Below, in pieces: positions 22,033 through 30,209 of a DNA stretch of 64,000 nucleotides; within the stretch, counting starts at the first letter, position 1, and every line of letters begins with the position of its first letter. Under the pieces are notes generated by a model. That model did no database searches. It worked only from the letters and a program-made list of their open reading frames with translations, and was not told the origin of the DNA. The translations under genes were made by a program, and so were the position numbers. Where the stretch lies: positions 372,001 to 436,000 of the forward strand of contig NZ_JAGQFT020000001.1 in assembly GCF_018122625.2 (NCBI RefSeq), written 5' to 3'. Source of the stretch: Coralloluteibacterium stylophorae. Lineage in GTDB: Bacteria; Pseudomonadota; Gammaproteobacteria; Xanthomonadales; Xanthomonadaceae.

Positions 22033-22125
22033 GCGTTCCCCGCGCGCATCGACGGCCGCGGGCCGTCCGGAACCGGCGAGTGTCGCATCAGCGGGAGCGA
22101 CCGGCTCCACACCGCGGCCACCCGA

Positions 22126-22147
22126 ATGGTGTAAAAATGGACACCAT
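22126..22147. promoter_or_regulatory. Candidate LexA2 operator (inverted repeat over the lexA2 start)
   Basis: ATGGTGT (22126-22132), 8-nt spacer, ACACCAT (22141-22147): perfect 7-bp arms. It covers both possible lexA2 start codons, so binding would block initiation, which fits LexA self-repression. It differs from the E. coli SOS box. That LexA2 binds it is inference. Confidence 0.5.
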
Positions 22148-22808
22148 GGACACCCCCACCGACCGCCAGCAGGCCATCCTCGACCACCTCGCCGCCTGCC
22201 TCGCCGCGGATGGGCGCCCGCCCACCCTGGCGGAGCTGGCGCGGGCCTTCGGCATCCTTCCCAATGCCGCGCGCAAGCACCTGCAGGCGCTGGAGGCCAA
22301 GGGCTGGATCGAGCTCGCCGCCGGCAAGGCGCGGGGGATCCGGCTGCTGGGCGGCAGGGCGCCCTCGCCGTCGTCCAGCGGGGCGAGCGCGGCGCGCGCA
22401 CCGCGGCTGCGTGCCCTGCCCGGCGGCCTGAGCCTGCCCCTGGTCGGCCGCGTCGCCGCCGGCAGTCCGATCCTCTCCGAAGGCAACATCGAGGCGCACT
22501 TCGGCCTCGATCCCGCGCTGTTCCGGCCGCGCCCGCACTTCCTGCTGCGGGTCGAGGGCCAGAGCATGACCGGCGCCGGCATCCTCGACGGCGACCTCAT
22601 CGCCGTGCACCGCACCCCGGTGGCCGACAGCGGCCGCATCGTGGTGGCCCGCGTCGAGGGCGAAATCACCGTCAAGCGCCTGGACGCCAGCCCGGCGCGG
22701 ATCCGGCTGCTGTCGGAGAACCCCGCCTTCGCCCCCATCGAGATCGGCCGCGACGTCTCGGACTTTGCGATCGAGGGCCTGTATGTCGGTGCCATCCGCC
22801 GCACCTGA
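22137..22808 (+). CDS. lexA2: LexA-type SOS repressor (LexA2)
   Basis: 223 residues. The N-terminal winged helix reads PPTLAELARAFGILPNAARKHLQAL. The S24 peptidase half has the Ala-Gly self-cleavage site in GRVAAGSPI, the catalytic Ser in VEGQSMTGAGILDGD and the catalytic Lys in EITVKRL. It should represses SOS genes until RecA filaments trigger self-cleavage. Two close ATGs (22137, 22146) are possible and neither has a Shine-Dalgarno, so the message may be leaderless. A second, canonical LexA is expected elsewhere. Upstream of imuA-imuB-dnaE2 in the classic cassette order. Confidence 0.85.
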   Translation: MDTMDTPTDRQQAILDHLAACLAADGRPPTLAELARAFGILPNAARKHLQALEAKGWIELAAGKARGIRLLGGRAPSPSSSGASAARAPRLRALPGGLSLPLVGRVAAGSPILSEGNIEAHFGLDPALFRPRPHFLLRVEGQSMTGAGILDGDLIAVHRTPVADSGRIVVARVEGEITVKRLDASPARIRLLSENPAFAPIEIGRDVSDFAIEGLYVGAIRRT

Positions 22809-23130
22809 GGCCGTCATGCGCATTCCCGCCTTCCCCCGCCCCTTCGCCGGAGCGGCCCCAGCTGCGATCTGTGGGAGGGGCTTCAGCCCCGACGGGCGTC
22901 CCGGCCGGGGTGCACCCGTCGCGGCCGGAGCCGCGCCTGCAGGGGCGCGAGCCACATCCGGAGAGCCCCCCCGGGCGCGACAGACTTCCGCCGGAGCGGC
23001 CTCGGCCGCGGTCGGCTCGGCCCGCTCCGGGCAGGCGTCGGGGCTGAAGCCCCTCCCACAGGGGAGGCTCGCGGCCGGAGCCGCGCCTGCGCGGGACCAG
23101 GCCGCGCCTGCGACCGGGGGCGCCTGAGCC
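22809..23130. repeat. Intergenic repeat region between lexA2 and imuA
   Basis: 322 nt without a convincing gene. It holds REP-like palindromes: GTGGGAGGGGCTTCAGCCCC (from 22871) and its inverse GGGGCTGAAGCCCCTCCCAC (ending near 23060), with GGAGC/GGCCGCG-rich fragments between. The frame stays open by chance (spurious peptides such as GLKPLPQG). In other genomes lexA2 and imuA are close, so this looks like an insertion into the operon. Confidence 0.75.
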
Positions 23131-23754
23131 ATGGGTGCCGTCGTCTCCCTCTCCGCTGCGCTCGGCGACGGCCGGCTGTACCGTGCCGGCAGGCCGCTGG
23201 CGCGGACCACCGAGGCGGTGGCCAGCGGGCTGGACGTGCTCGACGCCGCCCTGCCCTGGGGCGGTTTCCCGCGCGCGGCGCTGACCGAGCTGCTGCTGCC
23301 GGCCGACGGCATCGGCGAACTCGGCCTGCTGCTGCCGGCCCTGCGCAGGATCGCCCGCCGCGAGCGCATCGCCTTCGTCGCGCCGCCGTGGATCCCCTAT
23401 GCCCCGGCGCTGGCCGAGGCCGGCCTGCCGCTGGAGCGCCTGACCTGGGTCGACGCGCCGCCGCCGCGCGCGGCCTGGGCCAGCGAGCAATGCCTGCGCG
23501 CCGGCTGCTTCGGCGCGGTCCTGGGCTGGGTCGGCAGCGGCGACGACCGCGTCATGCGCCGCCTGCAGGTCGCCGCCACCGACGGCAGCGCGCTCGGCAT
23601 CGCCCTGCGCCCGCTGCGGCATGCGCGCAACCCGAGTCCGGCCGCCCTGCGCCTGGCACTGGCGGCGCAGGGCGACGGGCTGGAGATCCGCGTGCTCAAG
23701 TGCCGCGGCGCCGTGGCCCCCAGCCAGCCGCTGCACGCGGCGCGTGCGCATTGA
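23131..23754 (+). CDS. imuA: Translesion synthesis-associated protein ImuA
   Basis: 207 residues. A RecA/SulA-like fold is suggested by SGLDVLDAALPWGGFPRAALTELLLP and the later IAFVAPPWIPYAPALAEAG and QCLRAGCFGAVLGWV. ImuA works with ImuB and DnaE2 in error-prone bypass of DNA damage, and is essential for damage-induced mutagenesis where tested. The stop at 23754 lies 7 nt before the imuB start, so they are co-translated. Confidence 0.85.
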   Translation: MGAVVSLSAALGDGRLYRAGRPLARTTEAVASGLDVLDAALPWGGFPRAALTELLLPADGIGELGLLLPALRRIARRERIAFVAPPWIPYAPALAEAGLPLERLTWVDAPPPRAAWASEQCLRAGCFGAVLGWVGSGDDRVMRRLQVAATDGSALGIALRPLRHARNPSPAALRLALAAQGDGLEIRVLKCRGAVAPSQPLHAARAH

Positions 23755-23761
23755 GCCGGCG

Positions 23762-25423
23762 ATGCTCTGGGCCTGTCTCCATCTCCCCGCGCTGGCGGTC
23801 GAGGCGGTCTTCGCCGACCGCGACGACCACGCGCCGCGCGCGGTCCACGACCCGGCGCACCGGCACCGCCGCCTGGTCGGGACCGATCCGGCGGCGCAGG
23901 CGCTCGGCATCCATCCCGGCCTGACCAGCGCCACCGCCCGCGCGCTCGCCGCCGACCTCGCCGTCCGCCCGCGCGATCCCGCCGCCGAGCGCGCCTGCCT
24001 GACCACGGCCGCGGCGATGGCCTACGCCTTCAGCGGCCAGGTCGCCATCGCCCTGCCGGACGCGGTGCTGCTCGAGGTCGGCGCCAGCCTGCGCCTGTTC
24101 GGCGGCTGGACGGCGATCGACGCCGGCCTGCGCGAGGGGCTGTCGCGGCTCGGGCATGCGCACCGGATCGCGGTGGCGCCGACGCCGGCCGCCGCGCACG
24201 CCTTCGCCAGCCTGGAGGACGGCCGCCATCTCGGCGACCGCAGAGCGCTCGCGGCGGCCCTGCGCACGCTGCCGCTGGAGGCCGCCGGCCTGCCCGTCGA
24301 GGCCACCGCCCTGCTCGCCCGCGCCGGCCTGCGCCGGCTGGGCGAGGTGCTGGCGCTGCCGCGCGCCGACCTGCTGCGCCGAGTCGGCAAGCCGGTCGGC
24401 CTGCACCTGGACCGCCTGTGCGGACGCGCCGAGGACATCCGCACGCTGTACCGCCCGCCGGACCGCTTCGAGCGCGGGATGGAGTTCGAATACGGCATCG
24501 CCGACAGCGGCGCGCTGCTGTTCCCGCTCAGGCGGCTGGTCGACGCGCTCGCTGCGTTCCTGTCGGCCCGCGACGGCGGGGTGTCGCGCTTCGTGCTGCG
24601 GTTCGTGCACGAGGGCGCGCCGCGGACCGAGCTCGCCGTCGGCCTGCGCAAGCCCATGCGCGCCTCCCAGGCGCTGTTCGACGCCGCCCGCGGCCGGCTC
24701 GAGCGCCATGCCCTGGCCGCGCCCGCGCACGGGCTGCAGCTGGTCGCCGAGCACCTGCCGCCGTTCATGCCCGAACTGCGCGACCTGTTCGAGGCCGGCA
24801 GCCGCGGCGCGCTCGACCACGACGCCCTGGTCGAGCACCTGCGCGCACGCCTCGGCGACGACAGCGTGCGCAGCCTGGCGGTGGCCGCCGACCACCGCCC
24901 GGAACGCGCCTGGCGGGTGCTGGAGCCAGGCGAGACCACCCGCAGGCCGGCTGCGCCGTCGCGTCGGCGCAGGCCCGCGCGCGCCCTGCCGACGGAAGCG
25001 CACGACACACCGGCCGCGCTGCAGCGTGCATCGGAACCGGCATCCGCCACAGCAGCGGATGCGCGAACGGAGCCGGCATCGCCCTCGCCGCCGCGACGCC
25101 ACCACGAGGCAACCAGTCTCCACCTGCTCCCGCCGGCGCGCCCCCACGGCTTCCTGCCCCACCCGGCCAACGATGCCCACGGGGCGCGCGTCCACTCCGC
25201 GCCGGTCGCGCGCCGGCCGCTGTGGCTGCTGCCCGAGCCGGTCCCGCTGCGCGCCCGCATCGTGCGCCTCGTCGGCGGCAGCGAACGCATCGAGAGCGGC
25301 TGGTGGGACGACGCCGACGCCCGCCGCGACTACGTCGCCGCCGACCTCGACACCGGCCAGCGCGCCTGGCTCTACCGCGAGGCCGGCGGCGAGGGCTGGA
25401 TGCTGCATGGGTGGTTCGCATGA
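23762..25423 (+). CDS. imuB: ImuB, Y-family polymerase-like mutasome hub
   Basis: 553 residues starting MLWACLHLPALAVEAVF. It has a Y-family polymerase fold, but the usual acidic catalytic residues are not at their places, as in other ImuB proteins, which tether DnaE2 to the beta clamp rather than polymerise. A long low-complexity Arg/Pro/Ala linker (about residues 390-460) precedes the C-terminal part (RIESGWWDDADARRDYVAAD and WMLHGWF). An in-frame GTG at 23744 that overlaps imuA is an alternative start. Confidence 0.85.
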   Translation: MLWACLHLPALAVEAVFADRDDHAPRAVHDPAHRHRRLVGTDPAAQALGIHPGLTSATARALAADLAVRPRDPAAERACLTTAAAMAYAFSGQVAIALPDAVLLEVGASLRLFGGWTAIDAGLREGLSRLGHAHRIAVAPTPAAAHAFASLEDGRHLGDRRALAAALRTLPLEAAGLPVEATALLARAGLRRLGEVLALPRADLLRRVGKPVGLHLDRLCGRAEDIRTLYRPPDRFERGMEFEYGIADSGALLFPLRRLVDALAAFLSARDGGVSRFVLRFVHEGAPRTELAVGLRKPMRASQALFDAARGRLERHALAAPAHGLQLVAEHLPPFMPELRDLFEAGSRGALDHDALVEHLRARLGDDSVRSLAVAADHRPERAWRVLEPGETTRRPAAPSRRRRPARALPTEAHDTPAALQRASEPASATAADARTEPASPSPPRRHHEATSLHLLPPARPHGFLPHPANDAHGARVHSAPVARRPLWLLPEPVPLRARIVRLVGGSERIESGWWDDADARRDYVAADLDTGQRAWLYREAGGEGWMLHGWFA

Positions 25424-25534
25424 GCGGGTCGTGGCTGTTCGCCCGCTCCTGCGAGGCATGGCACAGGCGGCCCGCGCCCGATCCACTGTTGGATCGACGG
25501 CAGCCGCAACGGCTTCCGAAGCGCTGCGGGCTCC

Positions 25535-25591
25535 GGGTCACTTCTTCTTTGCTTGCCCAAAAAAGAAGTAACCAAGAAGAAAGGGCACCCC
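25535..25591. repeat. Dispersed intergenic element with CTTCTTCTTTG/CCAAGAAGAAAG arms
   Basis: GGGTCACTTCTTCTTTGCTT begins here; TGCCCAAAAAAGAAG and then AACCAAGAAGAAAGGGCACC complete it. The halves are imperfectly inverted (CTTCTTCTTTG against CAAGAAGAAAG) and flank an A-run, so it can form a hairpin. I recognise it as a repeat common between genes in Xanthomonadaceae and relatives. It is strikingly AT-rich compared with the surrounding DNA. Confidence 0.6.
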
Positions 25592-25723
25592 GGGCGGCCC
25601 GCCCTCCGGTGCTCCGCACCTGCGGGTGCGCGGGCGCCTTCCGGGCGTCCCTGCCCGCGCCCGCTGCGCGGCTGATCCTCCAGGCGTCCGCCGTGCCTCA
25701 CGGGGACCGGGAACGGCAACGGC

Positions 25724-26110
25724 AACAGCAACCGCAACGGCCGGTGACCTGTGCCGGGGCCGGCGCGGTGCGGCAGCGGGGCCTGCACGAGCGATCGCAG
25801 GCGACTCGAAGCGTCCGCCTCGATTCGGTCACGTGGCACCGTGCGGGCTTGGTCACCGATTCCCCCGGTGCGGTCGCGGCTGAAGCCGCTCCTACAGGGG
25901 ATGGCCAAGCGCCTCACCGGGAACCGCAACAGCAACCGCAACGGCCGGTGACCTGTGCCGGGGCCGGCGCGGTGCGGCAGCGGGGCCTGCACGAGCGATC
26001 GCAGGCGACCGGAAGCGCCCGCCTCGAACCGGGCATGCCGCGTCGCCAGGACCACGTCACGCGACACCCCGCTGCGCTCGCGGCTGAAGCCGCTCCTGCA
26101 GGCGACGACC
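25724..26110. repeat. 204-bp tandem duplication upstream of dnaE2
   Basis: The block that opens with AACAGCAACCGCAACGGCCG is repeated 204 nt later (25724 and 25928). The first 85 nt are almost identical between copies (GGTGACCTGTGCCGGGGCCG and on through CGAGCGATCGCAGGCGA), the rest diverges. Each copy ends in a REP palindrome, GCGGCTGAAGCCGCTCCT (near 25876 and 26083). Together with 25424-25723 it makes a 743-nt gap between imuB and the conserved part of dnaE2 that I judge non-coding. Confidence 0.75.
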
Positions 26111-26166
26111 GGGCGCCTGCGGGGGCCGGATCGCAGGGCGGCGGCACGGTCACCCCGCTGCGCCGG

Positions 26167-29100
26167 GTGGAGGCGGGCCGGCCGGGCGAGCCGGTCGGTG
26201 CGGCCGGGGAGCCGCCGCGCGTGCCGCGGCGCGCCGCCGCCTATGCCGAGCTCCACTGCCTGTCGAACTTCAGCTTCCAGCGCGGCGCATCCACCGCCAG
26301 GGAGCTGTTCCACACCGCGAAGGCGCAGGGCTATGCGGCGCTGGCGATCACCGACGAGTGCTCGGTCGCCGGCATGGTGCGGGCGCTGGAGGCGAGCGAG
26401 GAAAGCGGGCTCAAGCTCATCGTCGGCAGCGAGTTCGCCCTGGTCGATGGCCCCAGGCTGGTGCTGCTGTGCGCGGACCGCGCCGGCTACGCGAACCTGT
26501 GCCGGCTGATCACCACCGCGCGCCGCAATGCCGGCAAGGGCGACTACCGGCTGACCCGCGCCGATCTCGACGCGCAGCCGCTGGACGGCCTGCTGGCGCT
26601 GTGGCTGCCGCCGCGCGCCGCGGACGCCCCCGTGGGAACGGCTTCGGCCGCGACCTGCGCCACATCCGGAGGCGACGATCCGGTCGCGGCTGCAAGCGTT
26701 CCTCCGGAGGCCCATGGCCGCGGAGCCGTGCGGCCGCCAGGTCCCGATTCCCGATCCCCGTCCCACCGGCACCGCGCCACCGTACCCATCGCGGCCGAGG
26801 CCGTGCCTGCGGAGTTCGCGGCCCAGCGCGAGGAGCTGGCCTGGCTGGCGGCCCGCTTCCCCGGGCGCGCCTGGATCGCGCTCGAGCTCCACCGCAGCGC
26901 CGGCGACGACGCCCACCTGGCCCGCCTGCACGACCTGGCGCAGGTCTCCGGCCTGCCGCTGGTCGCCGCCGGCGACGTGCACATGCACCGCCGCAGCCGG
27001 CGCCGGCTGCAGGACGTGATGACCGCGATCCGCCTGCGCCGGCCCGTCGCCGACTGCGGGCACGCGCTGTTTCCCAACGGCGAGCGCCACCTGCGCCGGA
27101 TCGCCGAGCTGGCCGCGCTGTACCCGGACGCTGCCCTGCGCGAGACGCTCGCGGTCGCCGCGCGCTGCACGTTCTCGCCGCGCCAGCTCACCTACGACTA
27201 TCCGCAGGAGCTGGTGCCGCCGGGCCGGACCCCCACCGGGCACCTGCGCATGCTGACCGAGGAAGGCGCCGTCCGGCGCTGGCCGCAGGGCGTGCCGCCA
27301 GCGGCGCGCGAGAAGATCGAGAAGGAGCTCGCGCTGATCGCCGAGTGCGGGTTCGAGGCCTTCTTCCTCACCGTCGAGGACATCGTCCGCTGGGCGCGCG
27401 GGCGCGGCATCCTCTGCCAGGGCCGCGGGTCGGCGGCCAACTCCATCGTCTGCTACTGCCTGGGGGTGACCTCGGTTGGCCCCGACCGCATCGAGATGCT
27501 GTTCGAGCGCTTCGTGTCCAAGGCGCGCAAGGAGCCGCCGGACATCGACGTCGACTTCGAGCACGAGCGCCGCGAGGAGGTCATCCAGTACGTCTTCGCC
27601 AAGTACGGGCGCCAGCGCGCGGCGCTCGCGGCGACGGTGATCAGCTACCGCGCCAAGAGCGCGGCGCGCGACGTGGCGCGCGCGCTGGGTTTCGGCGAGG
27701 ACGGCATCGACCGCCTCGCCCACGCCTTCTCCTGGGCGCACGGCGAGGTCGCCCTGCACCTGCGCCTGCGCGAGGCCGGCTTCGATCCGGACGCGCGCGA
27801 GATGCGCCTGCTGGTGGCCCTGGTGGCGGAGCTGATGGGCCAGCCGCGGCATCTGTCGCAGCACGTCGGCGGCTTCGTCATCTCCGGCGAACCGCTGTGG
27901 AACCTGGTGCCGGTCGAGAACGCCTCGATGCCCGACCGCACCGTGATCCAGTGGGACAAGGACGACCTCGAGGAGCTCGGCCTGCTCAAGGTCGACTGCC
28001 TCGCGCTCGGCATGCTGACCTGCCTGCGCAAGGGCTTCGAGCTGATCGCGAGGCACCACGGCGACACGCTCACCCTCGCCGGCATCCCCGAGGGCGACGC
28101 GCCGACCTACGCGATGATCCAGCGCGCCGAGACGCTGGGCACCTTCCAGATCGAGTCGCGCGCGCAGATGGGCATGCTGCCGCGGCTGAAGCCCGCCAGG
28201 TACTACGACCTGGTGATCCAGGTGGCGATCGTGCGCCCGGGTCCGATCCAGGGCGACATGGTGCATCCCTACCTGCGCCGCCGCAGCGGCGAGGAGGCCA
28301 TCGTCTACCCGAAGCCGGAGATCCAGGCCGTACTGCAGAAGACGCTCGGCGTGCCGCTGTTCCAGGAACAGGTGATGCAGCTGCTGATCGTGGCGGCGAA
28401 GTTCGACCCCGGCGAGGCCGACCGGCTGCGCCGGGCGATGGCGGCATGGAAACGCCGCGGCGGCCTCGACGACTGGGAGCCGATGGTGATCGAGCGCATG
28501 ACCGGCAACGGCTACAGCCTCGAGTACGCGCAGCAGGTGTTCCAGCAGATCCGCGGCTTCGGCAGCTACGGCTTCCCCGAGGCGCATGCGGCGAGCTTCG
28601 CCCTGCTCGCCTACGTGAGCTGCTGGCTGAAGTGCCACGCCCCGGCGGCCTACGCCTGCGGTCTGCTGAACGCGCAGCCGATGGGCTTCTATGCGCCGGC
28701 GCAGATCGTCGCGGAGCTGCGCGGCAACGGCGTGCAGGTGCGCCCGCCGGACGTCGCCGCGAGCGACTGGGATTCCACGCTGGAGCTGCTGCCGCAGGCG
28801 CAGTCGGGCCTCGGCCGCGACGCGCGGCGATACCACGGCGCGCATGCGCTGCGGCTCGGTCTGCGGCTGATCTCGGGCCTGGACGAGGCCAGCGCCGCGC
28901 GCATCGTCGCCGCGCGCGCGGAGCGGCCGTTCCGCGACGTGTCCGACCTGGTCGCCCGCGCCCGCCTCGACGCCCATGCGCGCAACCGCCTGGCCGACGC
29001 CGGTGCGCTGCGTGCGCTGGCCGGGCATCGCCATCGCGCGCAGTGGGAGATCGCCGGCAGCGCCTCGCGTCGCGACCTGCTGCTGGACGTGCCGACCGCG

Positions 29101-29547
29101 GAAGGCGCGCTCGCCCTGCGCCCGCCGACGGTGGCGGAGGACACCCACGCCGACTACGCGACCCTCGGCCTCACCCTCGGCACCCATCCGCTGAAACTGG
29201 TGCGCCGCCCGCTCGCCGGGCGCCGCGTGCAGCGCAGCGACCGCCTGCCGCGCCTGCGCAGCGGCAGCCGCGTGCGCTGCGCCGGGCTGGTGATCCTGCG
29301 CCAGCGCCCCGACACCGCCAGCGGCATCACCTTTCTGACGCTCGAGGACGAGGCCGGCGTGGTCAACGTCATCGTCCGCCGCAGCGTCGCCGAGCGGCAG
29401 CGCGCGGAACTGCTAGGCGCGGTCCTGCTCGCGGTCGACGGCCGCGTCGACCACCGCGAGGGCGTGAGCCACCTGATCGCCGAGCGCCTGCACGACTACG
29501 GCGACCTGCTGCCGGGCATCGGGCCGGTGTCGCGGGATTTTCATTAG
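26167..29547 (+). CDS. dnaE2: Error-prone DNA polymerase DnaE2
   Basis: C-family polymerase, 1126 residues from the GTG chosen here. The PHP domain opens with AYAELHCLSNFSFQRGAS. Catalytic Asp residues sit in PPDIDVDFEHERREEV; finger and palm motifs include GRGSAANSIVCYCLGVTS and SQHVGGFVISGEPL. The beta-clamp/HhH and OB regions follow, ending at the TAG. It is the polymerase of the ImuAB mutasome. Starts are uncertain: GTG 26167, GTG 26221 (GGGGAG 9 nt upstream) or ATG 26035, the last of which would place repeat DNA in the coding region. Residues about 150-216 are extra compared with family members and match a decayed REP repeat. Confidence 0.85.
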   Translation: MEAGRPGEPVGAAGEPPRVPRRAAAYAELHCLSNFSFQRGASTARELFHTAKAQGYAALAITDECSVAGMVRALEASEESGLKLIVGSEFALVDGPRLVLLCADRAGYANLCRLITTARRNAGKGDYRLTRADLDAQPLDGLLALWLPPRAADAPVGTASAATCATSGGDDPVAAASVPPEAHGRGAVRPPGPDSRSPSHRHRATVPIAAEAVPAEFAAQREELAWLAARFPGRAWIALELHRSAGDDAHLARLHDLAQVSGLPLVAAGDVHMHRRSRRRLQDVMTAIRLRRPVADCGHALFPNGERHLRRIAELAALYPDAALRETLAVAARCTFSPRQLTYDYPQELVPPGRTPTGHLRMLTEEGAVRRWPQGVPPAAREKIEKELALIAECGFEAFFLTVEDIVRWARGRGILCQGRGSAANSIVCYCLGVTSVGPDRIEMLFERFVSKARKEPPDIDVDFEHERREEVIQYVFAKYGRQRAALAATVISYRAKSAARDVARALGFGEDGIDRLAHAFSWAHGEVALHLRLREAGFDPDAREMRLLVALVAELMGQPRHLSQHVGGFVISGEPLWNLVPVENASMPDRTVIQWDKDDLEELGLLKVDCLALGMLTCLRKGFELIARHHGDTLTLAGIPEGDAPTYAMIQRAETLGTFQIESRAQMGMLPRLKPARYYDLVIQVAIVRPGPIQGDMVHPYLRRRSGEEAIVYPKPEIQAVLQKTLGVPLFQEQVMQLLIVAAKFDPGEADRLRRAMAAWKRRGGLDDWEPMVIERMTGNGYSLEYAQQVFQQIRGFGSYGFPEAHAASFALLAYVSCWLKCHAPAAYACGLLNAQPMGFYAPAQIVAELRGNGVQVRPPDVAASDWDSTLELLPQAQSGLGRDARRYHGAHALRLGLRLISGLDEASAARIVAARAERPFRDVSDLVARARLDAHARNRLADAGALRALAGHRHRAQWEIAGSASRRDLLLDVPTAEGALALRPPTVAEDTHADYATLGLTLGTHPLKLVRRPLAGRRVQRSDRLPRLRSGSRVRCAGLVILRQRPDTASGITFLTLEDEAGVVNVIVRRSVAERQRAELLGAVLLAVDGRVDHREGVSHLIAERLHDYGDLLPGIGPVSRDFH
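26629..26815. repeat. Decayed REP-type composite repeat inside dnaE2
   Basis: The arms GTGGGAACGGCTTCGGCCGC and CATCGCGGCCGAGGCCGTGC and the centre CGATTCCCGAT-CCCGTCCCACC line up with the same three-palindrome unit seen at 29722-29923 (GTGGGAGCGGCTTCAGCCGC, ATTCCCGACTCCCGCTCCAC, CCATTGCGGCTGAAGCCGCT). The reading frame is kept across it and codes for a Pro/Ala/Ser/His-rich stretch in the PHP domain. Confidence 0.65.
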
Positions 29548-29551
29548 TGGG

Positions 29552-29720
29552 TGGGGAATCGGGAAGCGGGAAGCGGGAATCGGGACCTGGGGCTTTGGCT
29601 TTGGCTTTGGCTTTGGCTTTGGCTTTGGCTTTGGCTTTGGCTTTGGCTTTGGCTTTGGCTCGGGACTCGGGACTCGGGACTCGGGACTCGGGACTCGGGG
29701 CTTGGGGCTTGGGGCTTGGG
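29552..29720. repeat. Nested heptamer/hexamer microsatellite
   Basis: A degenerate GGGAATC/GGGAAGC heptamer array opens the stretch, then (GGCTTT) repeats about 11.7 times (29591-29660), then CGGGACT five times (29661-29695), then GGGGCTT three times. Copy number should vary between strains by slippage. Its reverse reading gives a spurious (PK)n peptide. Sits directly behind the dnaE2 stop. Confidence 0.9.
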
Positions 29721-29721
29721 C

Positions 29722-30120
29722 GCGGGCTTCTGTGGGAGCGGCTTCAGCCGCGACCGGGCCTGCCGCCAGATCCGACGCCATGTCGGGGCTGAAGCCCCTC
29801 CCACATGGGATGCCTGCAGCCGCGAGGTCTGCATTCCCGACTCCCGCTCCACCATCACCGCAACGCCCGTCCCCATTGCGGCTGAAGCCGCTACTACGCA
29901 GGGTCATGGCCGCGGGCGATGACGCGGGCTTCTGTAGGAGTGGCTTCAGCCGCGACTGGGCCTGCCGCCAGATTCCGACGCCACGTCGGGGCTGAAGCCC
30001 CTCCCACATGGGATACCTGCAACCGCGAGGTCTGCATTCCCGACTCCCGCTCCACCATCACCGCAACGCCCGTCCCCATTGCGGCTGAAGCGCTCCTACG
30101 GAGGTCCACGGCCGCGGGAT
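29722..30120. repeat. 202-bp tandem duplication of a composite REP unit
   Basis: GCGGGCTTCTGT begins both copies (29722 and 29924). Each has three palindromes: GGAGCGGCTTCAGCCGCGAC (varied as GGAGTGGCTTC in copy 2), GTCGGGGCTGAAGCCCCTCC and GCGGCTGAAGCCGCTAC/GCGGCTGAAGCGCTCC, with identical TGCATTCCCGACTCCCGCTC spacer. Fills most of the 662-nt gap between dnaE2 and the next gene; no gene is seen in the gap. Confidence 0.9.
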
Positions 30121-30209
30121 CGTGCGACCGCCTCACCGCCCCCGCCGATTAACCGCGCACTGACGGCCGCGCTGCTACATGTGCGCGCGAGCCTCCCCGG
30201 GGATCCACC

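Follow-up and report, generated by a model that had tools for sequence, protein, structure and literature searches.

Genes and repeats of the locus

The analysed DNA, a stretch of 64,000 nucleotides from the genome of Coralloluteibacterium stylophorae (the window), encoded on its forward strand a lexA-type SOS repressor (22080-22808; TIGR00498, 186.6 bits, cut-off 110.95) upstream of imuA (23131-23754; NF033429, 195.9 bits, cut-off 150), followed by imuB (23621-25423) and dnaE2 (imuC; 26167-29547), the gene of an error-prone DNA polymerase. The start of imuB is uncertain, and the gene was named by its place between imuA and dnaE2, its match to Pfam IMS being weak (24.2 bits, cut-off 23.2). The start of dnaE2 is also uncertain (GTG 26167 or GTG 26221, with the frame open further upstream); orthologue alignments of the protein start a few residues past position 26227. 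The dnaE2 product matched the error-prone DNA polymerase model NF004225 with 1416.5 bits (cut-off 939) and contained the Pfam domains PHP, DNA_pol3_alpha, finger and HHH_6.

REP copies were present in the lexA-imuA gap (22868-23077, no strand assigned; cores at 22874, 22918 and 23037). The imuB-dnaE2 gap held two 201-nt direct repeats of 83% identity (25714-26118, forward strand), both of which have a REP arm close to the end (cores at 25873 and 26077). Downstream of dnaE2, a composite unit at 29722-29923, used as the intergenic reference, was followed by a second tandem copy at 29924-30125 (both forward strand; spacing 202-203 nt, 97% over 118 nt), with REP at five places within 29735-30004. 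The original prediction that the imu gaps carry the repeat family also found in dnaE2 was therefore borne out. The dnaE2 frame is open far upstream (24418-26166), through the two direct repeats into imuB, so a gene-calling pipeline might give DnaE2 an N-terminal extension that contains REP. Directly downstream of the gene (29588-29714), tandem GGCTTT hexamers were followed by G-rich heptads of the CGGGACT type; quadruplex-forming repeats in Xanthomonas are a subject treated in PMC4692102.

A worn REP composite read in frame within dnaE2

Positions 26629-26815 of the forward strand (residues 135-197 counted from 26227), in loop 2 of the PHP domain, consisted of a REP composite in the frame of dnaE2. 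The segment was aligned end to end (26632-26814) with the intergenic unit 29722-29923, through the outer arms at either end, the inner arm and the ATTCCCGA...CACC spacer; identity in the aligned columns of the global alignment was 72.8%. Its local score was 54 against this unit and 44 against the second unit. In comparison, codon shuffles of the segment scored 11.8 on average against the composite unit (n = 2000, sd 1.8, maximum 25), dinucleotide shuffles reached at most 23 (n = 2000), and 138 other windows of dnaE2 scored 15 or less. Chance similarity to the repeat was thus ruled out by both kinds of shuffle. A search of the whole genome with 26600-26830 gave at least 87 matches at E ≤ 10, self included, with 40 of 322 candidates scored; among those scored, the best non-self match had an E value of 3.8e-11 (76% over 96 query bases) and the next best 1.6e-9. 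Two of the matches listed spanned 153 and 178 query bases. The BLASTN-type comparison with other copies in the genome, proposed together with the original prediction, therefore returned significant non-self matches, and a segment without relatives among the repeats was not what was found. A search of plasmid DNA gave no match.

The three 20-nt REP arms of the segment differed from the core consensus by two, four and five mismatches, which marks the dnaE2 copy as worn. Arm 1 (26635-26654, forward strand; two mismatches), in which the GTAG tag is worn to GTGG, is read as GTASAAT. Arm 2 (26683-26702; four mismatches) lies in the opposite orientation, on the reverse strand, and is read as VAAASVP; arm 3 (26788-26814, reverse strand; five mismatches) is read as IAAEAVPAE. 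Arms 1 and 2 pair with a score of 15, whereas those of the intergenic unit reach 21. The spacer GATTCCCGATCCCCGTCCCACC (26746-26767, forward strand) was common to the composites in an alignment of five copies. The segment is confirmed as a worn but full-length copy of the REP composite with its three palindromes; it had been proposed to be a decayed, in-frame composite lining up with 29722-29923 in arms and spacer, and the score, the full-length alignment and the arm mismatches agree with both statements.

The insert comprised approximately 62 amino acids in frame, was free of stops in all six frames and left dnaE2 open. The frame of the gene was intact across the segment, as anticipated for a repeat that became protein-coding without a frame shift, and its translation would follow from this intact frame. 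The GC contents at codon positions 1, 2 and 3 were.81/.74/.73 in the segment, compared with.70/.52/.95 before and.76/.48/.96 after it; this flat profile, unlike that of the flanks, points to a past as non-coding DNA. Mismatches between the segment and the intergenic unit were distributed 19/11/17 over codon positions 1/2/3, with no excess at the third. The lack of such an excess speaks, if only weakly, against prolonged selection on the peptide, as the unit used for comparison may not be the copy's true ancestor. A promoter and terminator scan near the segment found nothing. In the predicted model of the PHP domain, residues 136-187 had pLDDT values below 50, which may partly come from the few aligned sequences in the insert, and lay between a strand (122-126) and a helix (195-210). 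The solved folds nearest to the model were E. coli Pol III alpha and its relatives.

The REP family of the genome and its transposase

The REP core occurred 350 times in the 4.0 Mb genome (up to two mismatches), compared with four occurrences of a reversed control pattern, a high copy number with dispersal. The cores had the form GTAGGA-GCGGCT-TC-AGCCGC-GAC or GTGGGA variants of it, the dnaE2 copy having GTGG. With a short palindrome, an unpaired GTAG tag, a dinucleotide and a 3-bp tail, the element has the features by which the GTAG class is defined in the text of PMC3733652, and its GTAG tag, GA dinucleotide and GAC tail match GTAG-1/2 as described there.

A REP cluster was judged intragenic if its two flanks were coding in one and the same frame and this frame ran open through the cluster. 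Among 43 clusters, 41 were not intragenic, one lay at an edge and one, that of dnaE2, was intragenic; five of the 41 are weak negatives, since at neither distance did both flanks show a clear coding signal. The sample comprised 37 stretches at other REP places among the matches listed (contigs C1-C5) and five from the window. An earlier GC-frame test on 27 non-self loci and the dnaE2 copy had the same outcome. That the repeat usually sits between genes held for the clusters tested, as none of the other 41 looked intragenic.

Five Y1 transposase genes were found in the genome. One of them (G000:C5:227562, L153; Y1_Tnp, 27.2 bits, cut-off 23) was flanked by pairs of the window's REP on both sides (positions 1221, 1318, 1907 and 1955 of L153), making it a RAYT gene in the arrangement that a passage of PMC3733652 names a REPtron. 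The other four had no window REP within the fetched flanks. Four near-identical Y1 transposase genes without the window REP in their fetched flanks lay within approximately 10 kb at G000:C4:399096-409204 (L149-L152).

Absence of the segment from most orthologues

The linker from LLALWLPP to LAWLAARFPGR measured 74 residues in the DnaE2 of the window. The commonest length was 7 (41 of 119 loci, a set in which the window's gene appears three times and some loci are DnaE1). A survey of 60 genomes from 55 genera, the window's genome included, gave at least 37 N-terminal pieces of other DnaE2s, of which 34 ended at residue 128-143 and three at 158-203. The three late-ending pieces (G005, G014 and the second copy of G046) had long loops of their own. 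Approximately 60 PHP residues had been thought to have no equivalent in the family; this was true of most orthologues, and some have long loops. The proposed alignment of orthologues accordingly found most of them without the segment, and orthologues sharing it in unrelated sequence did not turn up. An insertion common to the family was ruled out, since most orthologues lack it.

Recurrence of long loops in the PHP domain

When the PHP domain was used as a query against 297 genomes of the family, 243 matched, and approximately 230 of these have DnaE2 (243 minus 13 weak DnaE1-like matches with a best E value weaker than 1e-22). In 13 genomes the alignment was split by a long loop. Two kinds were distinguished by position: loop 1 precedes the LALWLP strand and loop 2 follows it. 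Loop DNA was searched in its own genome for 12 of the 13, and dispersed repeats were found in seven (G000, the genome of the window, and G014, G097, G123, G136, G238 and G262). A loop was considered repeat-bearing if the matches listed hit the locus's own part of the joined query; per-genome totals may include the loops of other genomes and are not copy numbers. Two genomes stand outside the seven of 12: G010, with 19 matches, the listed non-self ones being to sister loops, and G315, a frameshifted draft whose own loop was not queried. In the latter (L176), dnaE2 was frameshifted around several SMAG-like repeats in loop 1.

The repeats differed between genomes. The loop of G014 contained REP and a CCCTCTCC-type repeat, that of G097 the ATTCCCGCG palindrome, and those of G136, G238 and G262 SMAG-like repeats. 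Repeats in loop 1 of the g11 genomes resemble SMAG elements, to which they may belong. The SMAG elements of Stenotrophomonas correspond to GTAG families 6-9 in the text of PMC3733652. The G123 loop had at least 63 matches with the joined query, self included, one non-self copy being 100% identical over 145 nt. Elsewhere in that genome (e.g. G123:C87:12784-13336), units of approximately 135 nt stood in tandem runs and were 95-98% identical to the loop insert. This repeat is apparently young and active. The original prediction of an in-frame repeat in dnaE2 was right for this gene, but the event is not a one-off: other repeat families occupy the same loops in other genomes, and a second region of DnaE2 as well.

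Five of the 12 searched loops contained no dispersed repeat, with matches to self only in G005, G080 and G109 and three matches each in G195 and G295; the G295 loop had a SMAG-like look, worn. A recognisable repeat is thus not required for a long loop to form or be retained. The second DnaE2 of G046, with a loop of 154 residues, was not repetitive in its own genome. The loops of L145 (G046:C6) and L175 (G195), of 154 and 162 residues and with one and three genome matches, had a weakened codon-position signal.

A scan of genome contigs found long loops in 18 of 80 loci, and ten of these were searched in their own genomes. Repeated DNA was present in seven (L035, L039, L079, L045, L055, L069 and L054) and absent from L068, L108 and L038, a proportion that is not a rate, the ten having been picked partly for their repetitive look. 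In a class-wide sample of 370 genomes, long loops broke the alignment in G000, the second G046 copy and G422; G669 was left out of this judgement on account of a masked run. Smaller, non-splitting extensions of the loops were measured only where they were fetched (G370, G010).

Controls and a second insertion-prone region

Relatives from the same genus had loops of ordinary length. The combined loops had 21 residues in G032 and G096 and 132 in G123 of the same genus, and 21 in G061 and G124 compared with 71 in G097. In another genus, short totals in G159 (21), G226 (28) and G285 (27) stood against 46 in G262, 62 in G136 and 93 in G238. In a tree of 89 rows constructed without the loop columns, the 15 repeat-bearing rows (G010 among them) required ten changes, at least five of them forced by strong branches; the tree is a quick one, enriched for long loops. 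The PHP domain of DnaE1 served as a control in the same 297 genomes: 290 matched, and at most four showed a sign of interruption in the table of genomes (G313 and G315 in two pieces, G158 and G210 as weak single matches).

Insertions of at least 15 residues along DnaE2 gathered at residues 110-140 and 786-796 of the reference (L004), with scattered cases elsewhere, on a map that takes in deliberately fetched long-loop genomes, some viewed twice. The PHP loops were initially regarded as by far the main insertion site. This view was dropped after a recount on loci that had not been fetched for their loops, in which the second region was nearly as prone. In two sets of such loci, net insertions of at least 15 residues were found in the PHP loops in 3/30 and 18/80 rows and at residues 780-800 in 5/30 and 10/72 rows; for insertions of at least 40 residues the counts were 1/30 and 5/80 in the PHP loops and 0/30 and 3/72 in the second region. 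DnaE2 thus has two insertion-prone regions, the PHP loops being one of them.

The second region lies close to the HhH domain. Six of its inserts of at least 25 residues were examined within their own short loci, and palindromic or repeat DNA was present in five (L020, L036, L049, L051 and L086). In L020 (G007), reference residues 786-796 held an in-frame pair of the window's REP core with one mismatch per arm, together with a perfect inverted repeat 18 bases or more in length. Inverted repeats of this minimum length were also present in L036 and L051. A CCCTCTCC-type repeat stood in L086 and a short palindrome in L049; the insert of L093 had no palindrome in its own short locus. For L020 and L051, 18-mers of the insert recurred in the same short locus.

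Relation to known repeat systems

Intragenic REPs are known, as is DnaE2 as their target, and the present case is not a new kind of system: the text of Di Nocera et al. 2013 (PMC3733652) describes REPs in genes, many of them for DNA synthesis and repair, and names DnaE2. The composite resembles the GTAG/CGTC intragenic REPs of that text in lying in frame in such a gene, DnaE2, and in its GTAG tag, unpaired dinucleotide and 3-bp tail. According to the same text, the REP-bearing gene is in many species the only intragenic case, and a site shared by two species (both Xanthomonas) is reported there only for recB, REPs in other genes belonging to one functional category being said to lie at different sites. 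Unlike the insertions in that account, those in DnaE2 collect here in two adjacent PHP loops and the second region; two preferred DnaE2 regions would fit the 'different sites' of PMC3733652. The element also differs from the REPs described there in being a three-palindrome composite of 62 residues, and the loops additionally contain repeats unlike GTAG/CGTC REPs.

A further parallel are the Rickettsia palindromic elements (RPE; Ogata et al. 2002; Claverie and Ogata 2003, both as cited in PMC3733652), palindromic repeats that also lie in frame in proteins. As with RPE, the dnaE2 insertion is in frame, the gene is open and relatives carry the gene without the insert, the window's genome being the sole member of its genus among the genomes compared. 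RPE, which belong to another organism and family, are spread over many genes; in the present case a single gene has received many repeat families. In the literature searched, which took in PMC3733652 outside its Figure 7 and supplement, no description was found of preferred DnaE2 regions, of the range of repeat families or of the contrast with DnaE1.

Origin of the insertions

We consider it very probable that a REP was inserted by transposition into a tolerant loop and later drifted, and that the recurrence stems from tolerance at a few landing places in DnaE2. The mobility of this REP-type repeat is probably owed to the REP-associated tyrosine transposase that the genome encodes, a route suggested by the REP-flanked gene. 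The repeat would have entered dnaE2 at a length and in a frame that kept the gene open, landing in the loop of the PHP domain between strand and helix (residues 126-195), where extra residues would do little harm, and the inserted copy would then have drifted. The harm would be small in a dispensable polymerase whose PHP active site is as a rule inactive: passages of PMC12926913 describe DnaE2 as a non-essential, SOS-induced polymerase and, at the level of the family, its PHP active site as generally disrupted. A dispensable, SOS-induced enzyme with a disrupted PHP site would explain why the loops are filled in DnaE2 and not in DnaE1. In other lineages, loops 1 and 2 around the LALWLP strand have taken in unrelated repeat families several times, and the region near the HhH domain seems to have taken in repeats too, so that DnaE2 would offer a few tolerant landing places. 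In the simplest account, mobile repeats would insert widely and persist wherever they leave the frame open and the fold accommodates the additional residues. Tolerance as the cause of the recurrence is what we infer from this pattern.

The same insertions could have been selected, the added residues tuning the mutasome (e.g. through contact of the PHP domain with ImuB or ImuA) and altering mutability. AlphaFold models in PMC12926913 place the most extensive predicted DnaE2-ImuB contact on the PHP domain, PMC3733652 weighs neutral loops against mutator effects and speculates on the latter, and all six loop-2 REP arms of G000 and G014 are read in one Ala/Gly-rich phase. That common phase may be chance, as one of the two arms in the second region of L020 is read in another (SRLKPLL). 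Third codon positions showed no excess of changes, close relatives lack the inserts, and repeat type, length and place vary between lineages; we therefore regard selection of the inserts as quite unlikely. A related possibility is that a few DnaE2 loops, first of all the two in the PHP domain, act as a general evolutionary port by which selfish intergenic repeats of unrelated families repeatedly enter protein, some peptides then being kept for effects on mutasome docking or mutation. We regard it as unlikely. If it were true, mobile repeats would tune the inducible mutagenesis of their host. Several repeat families in the same loops might alternatively mean that the site itself, by its target sequence or structure, attracts repeats, with tolerance secondary. 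GTAG REP, SMAG-like repeats, the ATTCCCGCG palindrome, CCCTCTCC-type repeats and C-rich direct repeats would then need different machineries with one target, and the insertion points scatter over reference residues 110-140 while the second region collects repeats too, which makes such a preference very unlikely. Our estimates for the port, for selection and for target preference were each lowered somewhat because the second region proved nearly as insertion-prone.

Decay of the whole gene, with the insert as one sign of it, would suit the G315 draft genome, in which a frameshifted dnaE2 lies beside loop repeats. The dnaE2 of the window, on the other hand, has an open frame, a score of 1416 bits with the family model and strong codon bias on both sides of the insert, and we find a dying gene extremely doubtful here. 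The least credible reading is that low-complexity Ala/Pro linkers resemble the repeats by composition only. Linkers and repeats are both GC-rich, and some long loops, such as that of the second G046 copy, are plain Ala/Thr tracts; for the window, however, this was refuted by codon and dinucleotide shuffles, which never reached half the observed score, and by the matching spacer and arm order.

Under insertion with subsequent tolerance, the reading we prefer, DnaE2 carries, at the same places, many inserts that differ in age and repeat family and range from the G123 insert, identical over 145 nt to another copy in its genome, to the worn copy of the window. They would provide a datable, replicated natural series in which to follow the origin of protein segments from non-coding DNA and to ask whether an inducible mutator polymerase tolerates or uses such segments.
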